From: Thermodesulfovibrio aggregans
GTDB lineage: Bacteria > Nitrospirota > Thermodesulfovibrionia > Thermodesulfovibrionales > Thermodesulfovibrionaceae
Direction: 5' to 3'
Length of the DNA stretch: 64,000 nt
NCBI RefSeq assembly: GCF_001514535.1
Contig: NZ_BCNO01000002.1
Location: 62,001-126,000, forward strand
Below the pieces are notes generated by a model. It did not search any database and had not been told where the DNA came from. It saw only the letters and a program-made list of their open reading frames with translations. A program made the position numbers and the translations under genes. Shown here piece after piece: positions 58,909 to 61,109 of the stretch. Numbering within the stretch: position 1 is the stretch's first letter; every line of letters starts with the position of its first letter.

Positions 58909-59175
58909 ATGAAGTTTTCAATAGATTTGAACAACATCATCGGAATAATTGCAGGAGCAATAACAACATCTGCTCTTATTCCGCAGGCATTAAAAATATA
59001 TAAAACCAAATCTGCCCGAGATGTCTCACTCATGATGTTTATTTTTCTGGCAATAGGAATAGCACTCTGGTTTATTTACGGAATTTTAATCAAAGAAATT
59101 CCCGTAATTTTAGCAAACTTTATTTCTTTAATTCTAATCTTTACAATTATCTTTATGAAAATCCGTTACGGCTGA
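58909..59175 (+). CDS. SemiSWEET/PQ-loop sugar transporter-like protein
   Basis: 88 residues with three membrane helices and the PQ motif in [21 protein letters not shown]. It is the single-repeat bacterial form of SWEET proteins, which work as dimers and move sugars or related small solutes. Second-helix [16 protein letters not shown] and third-helix [17 protein letters not shown] follow. The 3' end overlaps the convergent aroF gene by 10 bases. Confidence 0.88.
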
Positions 59176-60185
59176 CCTCTTTCTATAATTGATGTAAAGA
59201 GTCTCAATTTTTCAACCATTTTACCAAAGGAACTGAAATTCAACGATTGCGGTCCATCTGAAAATGCTTTTTCAGGCTGAGGATGAACTTCTATCATAAG
59301 ACCGTCTGCACCTGCAGCAACTGCAGCATAAGCCATTGAAGGAACATATTTTGCATATCCTGTTGCATGGCTTGGATCAACAATTACCGGAAGATGGGTT
59401 TCCTCCTTAAGCACCGCAATAGCTGAAAGGTCAAGGGTGTTTCTTGTAGCAGTCTCAAAAGTTCTGATTCCTCGTTCGCATAAAATAACATTTCTATTGC
59501 CTTCGCTCAGAATGTATTCAGCACTCATGAGCCATTCTTTGATTGTCATTGACATTCCTCTTTTAAGTATTACAGGTTTCTGAACCTGTCCCACTCTTTT
59601 TAAAAGTTCAAAATTCTGGGCATTCCTCGTTCCAATCTGGAGAATATCAACATATTCTGAGACAAGGTCAACATGTTCAGGATTGACCACTTCTGTTACC
59701 ACAGGCATTCGGGCAATCTCACCAGCCTTTTTAAGTAATTCAAGTCCTTCTTTGCCAAGTCCCTGAAAGGAGTAAGGAGAGGTTCTCGGCTTGTAAGCAC
59801 CTCCTCTTAAAATATGAGCACCAATTGATTTTACAGCCTTTGCAGTACTGATAATCTGTTCTTCATTTTCAACAGCACAGGGACCAGCGATTATAACAAT
59901 TTCTTTGCCTCCAATTGAAACATCACCCACTTTGATAACAGTCTTTTCCTTTTTTACTTCCTTTGAGGCAAGCTTATAGGGCTTAAGAATCGGTATAACA
60001 GCCTCTACTCCATCAAGACTCTCAAGAGTTTGAAGTATAAATTTGCCCCTTTCGTCTCCAACAGCTCCAATTACATTTCTTGTAGCACCGTAGATTACAT
60101 GAGGCTTGTATCCAAGTTCCTCAATTTTTGATATCACCTGTTTAAGTTGCTCTTCAGTTGCCTCAGGCTTCATTACAATTACCAT
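59166..60185 (-). CDS. aroF: DAHP synthase with N-terminal ferredoxin-like domain (type I-beta)
   Basis: 339 residues. It catalyses the first step of aromatic amino acid synthesis (phosphoenolpyruvate plus erythrose-4-phosphate). The N-terminal ferredoxin-like domain (about 1-70, [21 protein letters not shown]) resembles the regulatory domain of Thermotoga DAHP synthase, which senses Tyr/Phe. Barrel motifs: [39 protein letters not shown] and DPSHATG. GGAGGT precedes the ATG. The upstream leader (60211-60350) looks like an attenuator, giving a second level of control. Confidence 0.95.
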
Positions 60186-60210: not shown

Positions 60211-60267
60211 AATAAATAAAAAAGGCAGACAAATCAGGAGCACCTTTCTGCCCCTGACCTGTCTGCC
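60211..60267 (-). terminator. Attenuator terminator upstream of aroF
   Basis: On the minus strand GGCAGACA pairs with TGTCTGCC (8 bp), and inside it TCAGG pairs with CCTGA (5 bp) around a 14-base loop; a 2-by-2 internal loop separates the stems. The tail TTTTTTATTTATT follows immediately. It lies 25 bases before the aroF ATG, so transcription would stop before aroF when the hairpin forms. Confidence 0.8.
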
Positions 60268-60305
60268 TTGAAATTTCTTGCCAGACTTAAACTGCCAGAG
60301 GCAGA
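60262..60305 (-). promoter_or_regulatory. Candidate antiterminator of the aroF attenuator
   Basis: TCTGCCT at 60305-60299, beginning one base after the leader peptide stop codon, is complementary over 7 bases to AGGCAGA at 60268-60262, which is the 5' arm of the terminator. The two structures are mutually exclusive. A small CTGCC-TCT-GGCAG hairpin (60304-60292) could also sequester this arm. Confidence 0.65.
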
Positions 60306-60350
60306 TTATCTAAAATAAAAACCAAACCAGAAATAAAACGTTTTTATCAT
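60306..60350 (-). CDS. Aromatic-rich attenuation leader peptide of aroF
   Basis: A 14-residue frame, MIKTFYFWFGFYFR, with its own AGGAG ribosome site 5 bases upstream. Eight of fourteen residues are aromatic (five Phe, two Tyr, one Trp). Stalling of the ribosome here when any aromatic aminoacyl-tRNA is scarce would free the antiterminator arm after the stop codon. It matches the design of the phe, trp and pheA leaders known in Enterobacteria, but the sequence is different. It begins 16 bases downstream of tRNA-Pro. Confidence 0.75.
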   Translation of the reverse strand: MIKTFYFWFGFYFR

Positions 60351-60365
60351 TTTCTCTCCTTTTTA

Positions 60366-60439
60366 TCGGGGTGAGAGGATTTGAACCTCCGACACCACGG
60401 TCCCGAACCGTGCGCGCTGCCAGACTGCGCTACACCCCG
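60366..60439 (-). tRNA. tRNA-Pro(CGG)
   Basis: 74 bases, CCA not encoded. Acceptor CGGGGTG pairs with CACCCCG; anticodon stem CACGG/CCGTG encloses TTCGGGA, anticodon CGG. The C1-G72 start is usual for bacterial proline tRNAs. A TATAAT box at 60454-60449 on this strand overlaps the pgeF stop codon and may drive the tRNA, unless it is transcribed with pgeF. Confidence 0.95.
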
Positions 60440-60449
60440 TTTTTTATTA

Positions 60450-61109
60450 TTATAACATCCCGATTATTCCGTATTGCCTTTCTGCCTTTTTACCATGAAA
60501 TCTGTAAGATGCGTATTCATTGTTTTTACAGTATGTGCAATCCTCTGAAATCCATATGTTTTGTCTCTTTACACCTGCTGAAATAGCTTGAATGAAATTT
60601 GCCACTCCAATATCAATATGTATTTTGCCATTTACTCTAAGAATGTAATCATCTTCTGGAGTCTGCTGTTTCAATGCTTCAATAACTTCCTCACCCACCT
60701 CATAACAGCATCCTTTAATGTATGGTCCGAAGGCGATAAGAAGATTTTTAGGATCACTTCCATAAATTTCATTCATTTTTAGTATTGTTTTTTTCAAAAT
60801 TCCCTTTGCTGTTCCACGCCATCCAGCATGAACTGCCGCTACTACTTTATTTTCTGGATCAAATATAAGCACAGGTAGGCAATCTGCGGTTTTTACTCCT
60901 ATGAATAAATTTTTTTGAGCTGTAATCACAGCATCTGCTATTGATGGCTCTGAGCAAAGATGTAGAACTGTTATGCCGTCTGTATGCCTTTGAATAGGTA
61001 GATAAAGCTTAAAAGGAAGTGAATTTTTAAAATCTTCAAAATCTTCTACCTTTCTTGTAAAAAATGCCTGAATCTGGTGATCTTTGAATATTTCTGGATA
61101 AATGAACAT
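60450..61109 (-). CDS. pgeF: PgeF-like peptidoglycan editing factor / multicopper polyphenol oxidase family (laccase domain)
   Basis: 219 residues. Conserved GVKTADCLPVLI, AAVHAGWRGTAKGIL and FGPYIKGCCYEVG with metal-ligand His and Cys (HAGWRG, CCYEVG) match the YfiH/PgeF family. In E. coli YfiH edits a misincorporated L-serine in peptidoglycan precursors; purine nucleosidase and adenosine deaminase activity is reported for relatives. It is directly before tRNA-Pro, 10 bases from its stop codon. It has a leaderless-type promoter. Confidence 0.92.
   Translation of the reverse strand: MFIYPEIFKDHQIQAFFTRKVEDFEDFKNSLPFKLYLPIQRHTDGITVLHLCSEPSIADAVITAQKNLFIGVKTADCLPVLIFDPENKVVAAVHAGWRGTAKGILKKTILKMNEIYGSDPKNLLIAFGPYIKGCCYEVGEEVIEALKQQTPEDDYILRVNGKIHIDIGVANFIQAISAGVKRQNIWISEDCTYCKNNEYASYRFHGKKAERQYGIIGML

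Follow-up and report, generated by a model that had tools for sequence, protein, structure and literature searches.

The best-documented cases of leader-peptide attenuation come from Proteobacteria and Actinobacteria. Before describing their hisS leaders of Firmicutes, Naville and Gautheret knew of no such attenuation beyond these two groups (PMC2965389). In C. glutamicum aroR–aroF, Phe/Tyr codons control the DAHP synthase operon (Neshat et al. 2014, via PMC11802643; PMC4046766). The locus analyzed here resembles that system in having an aromatic leader (Phe-Tyr-Phe in C. glutamicum) before a DAHP synthase gene, and stalling at the Phe/Tyr codons of aroR is described as raising transcription, as is proposed here (PMC11802643). 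Unlike the present leader, aroR belongs to another phylum, has only three aromatic residues in the description given there, and is described as responding to Phe but not to Tyr (PMC11802643); it should be noted that the two were likened by published description (PMC11802643, PMC4046766). The E. coli pheA leader (pheL) likewise combines a Phe-rich peptide with alternative hairpins and an intrinsic terminator, but it is rich in Phe only and controls chorismate mutase/prephenate dehydratase. In E. coli trpL, as in the mechanism proposed below, a stalled ribosome favors the antiterminator and a ribosome that has finished translation favors the terminator, whereas the present leader has mixed Phe/Tyr/Trp codons and an arm adjoining the stop codon whose partner comprises the upper arm of the terminator together with its loop; moreover, unlike in E. 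coli trp, folding suggests antitermination without translation. The T-boxes of Firmicutes aroF (RF00230) share the gene, the position and transcription attenuation by amino acid supply, but they bind tRNA directly, whereas the leader considered here is a predicted translated peptide, and no match to the T-box covariance model was found in the window or in its own genome.

The window, namely, the whole stretch of DNA that was analyzed (64 kb), carries on its minus strand, in this order, tRNA-Pro(CGG), an AGGAG sequence, the leader frame, a 20-bp hairpin, a U-rich tail and aroF. The signature of a leader-peptide attenuator before aroF was confirmed, and its parts were as follows:

60366..60439, minus strand: tRNA-Pro, anticodon CGG, directly 5′ of the leader (ARAGORN, Rfam)
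60356..60360, minus strand: Shine–Dalgarno site AGGAG of the leader peptide (sequence)
60306..60350, minus strand: leader ORF MIKTFYFWFGFYFR with the putative regulatory Phe/Tyr/Trp codons, ATG at 60350, stop codon TAA (sequence and conservation)
60294..60305, minus strand: antiterminator 5′ arm UCUGCCUCUGGC, adjoining the stop codon (folding and comparison)
60288..60308, minus strand: tentatively, a small hairpin UAAUCUGCC-UCU-GGCAGUUUA spanning the stop codon, which may compete as a pause or protector element
60261..60286, minus strand: inner antiterminator stem, GUCUG (60286–60282) with CAGAC (60265–60261) (fold of the truncated transcript)
60247..60258, minus strand: antiterminator 3′ arm GUCAGGGGCAGA, that is, the upper 5′ arm and loop of the terminator (folding and comparison)
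60222..60269, minus strand: intrinsic terminator hairpin of 20 bp (terminator scan; covariation)
60211..60221, minus strand: U-rich tail of the terminator (sequence)
59166..60185, minus strand: aroF, type I-beta DAHP synthase with an N-terminal ferredoxin-like domain, the putative controlled gene (Pfam and NCBIfam)

The aroF product matched PF00793, PF18152 (the ferredoxin-like domain) and NF006421, and its ATG at 60185 lies about 25 nt past the terminator tail. The spacer between 60205 and 60365 folded far more stably than expected (z = −6.15; none of 200 shuffles was equally stable), and a terminator scan recovered the same 20-bp stem before aroF. Eight of the 14 codons of the leader frame are aromatic, and eight aromatic residues within ten codons were matched in only 4 of 20,000 dinucleotide shuffles of the tRNA–aroF spacer. 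On both strands of the window, this was the aromatically densest short frame, and among the 16 densest short frames (at least six aromatic residues), it alone had a Shine–Dalgarno site. An earlier sequence-only reading of this DNA, which had read the Shine–Dalgarno site, the 14-codon frame with eight aromatic residues, the stop codon, the adjoining arm, the terminator and its tail about 25 nt before aroF directly from the letters and had proposed a ribosome-stalling attenuator, was supported. Both sequence-based findings that could have refuted it turned out in its favor: the aromatic frame was conserved in 25 of 25 relatives, and compensatory changes were present in the stems of both the terminator and the antiterminator (in the latter between families).

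The relatives included named Thermodesulfovibrio species and related metagenome genomes. An aromatic-rich leader followed by a terminator was found at the same place in each of the 13 genus members with this aroF (the window's genome included) and before all 12 aroF orthologues of the order outside the genus (68–74% identity, three further families); examples of the latter leader peptides are MIQNMFSYFSFGYWFGFYFRPSALGRVN, MEKYFFGNFHFWFGFYFSRSACGRG and MNTIYFSYFHFYFWYGFYFRPSTRGKG, and the most divergent was that of G169 (...HYFCCWCFRKSACGRG; HYFCCWCFRK). The other members of the genus also had a purine-rich, Shine–Dalgarno-like sequence 5′ of the leader ATG. In the 25 genomes, the N-termini of the peptides were variable and the C-terminal F/Y/W run was conserved, with the last Phe codon located exactly 9 nt (three codons) before the antiterminator arm in every case (TTT in 24). 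Counting codons back from the arm alone, with the peptides unaligned, Phe was found at position −3 in 25 of 25, Tyr in 19 and Phe in 4 at position −4, Phe in 22 at position −5, Gly in 18 and Ser in 5 at position −6, and Trp in 21 at position −8. The codon adjoining the arm is a stop codon in the genus; the other families have a sense codon there, with the frame continuing through the arm for 2–8 codons. By this comparison, the invariant codons of the predicted leader are those for Phe and Tyr. As regards the claim that the peptide mixes Phe, Tyr and Trp, the first two held throughout, and Trp occupied its usual position in 21 of 25 leaders and was absent in three members of the genus (G012, G013 and G015), so that sensing of Trp is probably secondary and sensing of all three aminoacyl-tRNAs is possible.

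The arm UCUGCCUCUGGC (60305–60294) pairs with GUCAGGGGCAGA (60258–60247) over 12 bp, and the predicted fold of a transcript ending at the terminator loop comprised this pairing together with the GUCUG/CAGAC stem, with −27.2 kcal/mol in all. In the 13 genomes of the genus, 10–12 of the 12 antiterminator pairs were kept, and the inner stem was paired in 93.5% of cells. In the comparison between families, the core pairing was kept in 149 of 150 cells, with compensatory changes: changes occurred on both sides (GUCUGCC/GGCAGAC, GUCUACC/GGUAGAC and GUCUAUC/GAUAGAC, with G–U intermediates), and the covariation score was reached by none of 500 shuffles; within the genus alone, the changes were almost only one-sided and covariation was not significant. 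When targets were shuffled between genomes, the observed pairing was reached in 57 of 20,000 cases, the targets having been chosen with a degenerate pattern, which favors pairing. RNA duplex prediction, run with no pairing imposed, selected this arm in 10 of the 12 relatives outside the genus, the exceptions being G120 and G169, in which the first terminator was not picked by the hairpin finder. The terminator itself was conserved and covarying (0 of 500 shuffles), and in G006 its base is replaced by ACGGAU/AUCCGU. The AGA of the antiterminator target sits in the terminator loop and stays complementary to the arm, so the terminator does not account for its conservation. The terminator and antiterminator pairings are mutually exclusive, and the antiterminator is conserved by covariation between families.

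The sequence-only reading had paired the arm UCUGCCU (60305–60299) with AGGCAGA (60268–60262) at the base of the terminator. The arm was correct, and the partner exists in the window but is not the conserved one: as a 7-bp pairing, it is complete in 7 of the 13 members of the genus and imperfect in 6, of which G006 has nearly lost it, and it is inapplicable in the other families, where the terminator base is unrelated. The small hairpin across the stop codon (60288–60308) had a predicted energy of −6.4 kcal/mol, stayed paired in 87% of cells and was weakened in G001. A second GC-rich hairpin, mostly with a U-run, was observed between the first terminator and aroF in L138–L140, L152, L154–L156, L158–L160 and L162; in several genomes its 5′ arm was complementary to the first terminator's 3′ arm, and a cascade of alternative pairings could result.

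These comparisons make it highly probable that the leader is a ribosome-mediated transcription attenuator of aroF that responds to the charging state of Phe- and Tyr-tRNA, and of Trp-tRNA in most members. The predicted course, from translation of the leader ORF and stalling to termination and the amino acid response, would be as follows. With sufficient aromatic amino acids, the ribosome would get to the UAA at 60308–60306, where its leading edge would cover the antiterminator 5′ arm to about 9–10 nt past the stop codon; with the arm covered, the 20-bp terminator (60269–60222) would form, and transcription would end before aroF. With Phe or Tyr in short supply, the ribosome would stall in the FYFWFGFY run, the free UCUGCCUCUGGC would pair with GUCAGGGGCAGA, and the inner stem would also take up the base of the terminator 5′ arm, so that the terminator would be blocked and aroF transcribed. 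In footprint-mask folding of the genus leaders, a ribosome with the stop codon in its A site covered about 13 nt counted from the stop codon, the footprint size being the standard value assumed from general knowledge. The antiterminator probability was 0 with the ribosome at the stop codon and 0.94–1.00 at 37 °C with the ribosome on the last aromatic codons, and a ribosome that had advanced no further than the Tyr at position −4 left the arm free. Thus, the modeled footprint (of assumed size) together with the fixed 9-nt spacing gives the geometry of an attenuator. This agrees with the earlier proposal that a ribosome at the stop codon masks the arm; the proposal that stalling on codons 5–13 frees it was upheld for codons 5–12, since in the model a ribosome with codon 13 in the A site would cover about 3 nt of the arm. 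It should be noted that thermodynamic folding gave antitermination even without a ribosome, which counts against the attenuation reading.

The conservation of the peptide extends beyond its aromatic codons, with Trp in 21 and Gly in 18 (Ser in 5) of 25 leaders at fixed positions, and the Gly is kept with three synonymous codons. This is what would be expected if a W-x-G-[FY]-[YF]-F segment stalled the ribosome on a free aromatic amino acid or metabolite, as in TnaC, and not on uncharged tRNA. Such an arrest-peptide sensor is nevertheless very unlikely: within the genus, Cys or Tyr can stand in place of Trp and Ser in place of Gly, the peptide of G169 is strongly divergent, and induction by stalling under excess would have the wrong sign for a biosynthetic enzyme.

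The tRNA-Pro gene lies upstream in the window and in 10 relatives; in G004 it is partly masked, and G014 lacks it. The first terminator downstream of this tRNA is that of the attenuator. Since a terminator is expected immediately after a tRNA, the hairpin might be a constitutive terminator of the tRNA-Pro transcript, with the aromatic frame arising by chance in an AT-rich spacer and aroF having its own promoter. This is less probable still and is largely refuted by the comparison, given that the frame is present in 25 of 25 genomes, including those with no adjoining tRNA (G014 and the other families), that its chance occurrence was 4 in 20,000, and that the terminator loop is conserved as the complement of the arm. 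A leader that binds a ligand or a protein, in the manner of a riboswitch, a T-box or TRAP, and acts independently of ORF translation has the least to recommend it, because, although T-boxes occupy the same place before related aroF genes of Firmicutes, no Rfam family reached its cut-off in the leader, the genome has no T-box, and conservation is low outside the ORF, arm and terminator, leaving no aptamer.

Rfam RF01859 (Phe_leader) gave a full-length but weak match in the window (29 bits vs a gathering score of 55) and no match in the 16 relatives tested, and assignment to this family was rejected as sub-threshold in the window and absent in relatives. The Firmicutes aroF homologues had a T-box directly upstream (L011, L015, L016, L022 and L035; at about 600 nt in L015). 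In the genome of the window, a second DAHP synthase gene (C1:895743) had no such leader before it, and no attenuator was seen upstream of trpE and pheA. The second DAHP synthase is 57% identical to the first and lies downstream of pheA and an aminotransferase-like gene (L097, L191; C1:893753–896744), the three apparently forming one operon.

Returning to the attenuator of aroF, its leader is probably co-transcribed with tRNA-Pro. The tRNA-Pro(CGG) transcript apparently has no terminator of its own, and the attenuator terminator would end it, which would make the tRNA supply independent of attenuation and aroF dependent on the tRNA promoter. The PgeF gene (peptidoglycan editing factor, Cu-oxidase_4; 60450–61109) ends just before the tRNA, and a TATAAT-like box overlapping its stop codon may be the −10 element of the tRNA–leader–aroF unit. 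In 12 of 12 relatives outside the genus (L138, L139, L140, L151–L162), a TTGAC[AT] box was found 35–40 nt 5′ of the leader ATG, placed like a −35 element for a start at the ATG, so that these leaders are predicted to be leaderless. Judging by the position of this box, translation of the peptide outside the genus probably starts on a leaderless transcript, in contrast to the Shine–Dalgarno-led version of the genus, and a switch from a leaderless start to the Shine–Dalgarno/tRNA-Pro start would have occurred in the genus. In all four families, the W-x-G-[FY]-[YF]-F segment keeps a constant distance to the antiterminator arm. A more speculative and rather improbable elaboration is that its nascent chain slows or arrests the ribosome, thereby integrating Phe, Tyr and Trp, and that the genus re-wired the attenuator from a leaderless start at its own promoter to the tRNA-Pro transcript with a Shine–Dalgarno site.

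A covariance model built from the 13 genus leaders and run on 396 genomes of the phylum matched within the genus and in three genomes from a second family of the order (E = 0.0001, 0.04 and 0.05), and all matches sat directly before aroF; G030, G031 and G035 were reached only with this model. Opposite-strand matches at the same places were rejected as reverse complements of the palindromic terminator. An exact-pattern search in 176 genomes of the order recovered the genus only, plus apparent chance matches outside it. In three genomes of the genus (G002, G007 and G008, two of them incomplete), aroF of this type was not found, so the leader is not universal there. For the nearest aroF orthologues from the phylum's other families (G176, G185, G193, G202 and G234), inspection of the upstream DNA revealed no leader, and the upstream sequence of G212 was too short for this check. 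On comparative evidence, the predicted attenuator spans at least four families of one order. The more distant aroF orthologues (59–62% identity) L166 (G075), L167 (G173), L168 (G040), L174 (G039), L176 (G174) and L179 (G070) were also preceded by short F/Y-containing frames and a terminator, and in G075, G173 and G174 an upstream arm of differing sequence was clearly complementary to the terminator 5′ arm; these leaders are possibly diverged forms of the same attenuator.

For Nitrospirae and Thermodesulfovibrio, the open-access literature yielded no description of leader peptides, and an earlier one elsewhere is possible. The principle is known from other bacteria, and this aroF switch is new to the Thermodesulfovibrio-related order. 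The analysis gives comparative support for attenuation in a Thermodesulfovibrio-related order that is deep and for the most part uncultured, at a gene through which carbon is committed to Phe, Tyr and Trp alike. This enzyme gene has T-boxes in Firmicutes, a predicted peptide leader here and no recognizable leader in the close orthologues that were sampled from the rest of the phylum, which makes aroF a good case for studying sensor replacement. Meanwhile, the fixed codon-to-arm spacing and the predicted change from a leaderless to a tRNA-coupled start make the evolution of the attenuator traceable.
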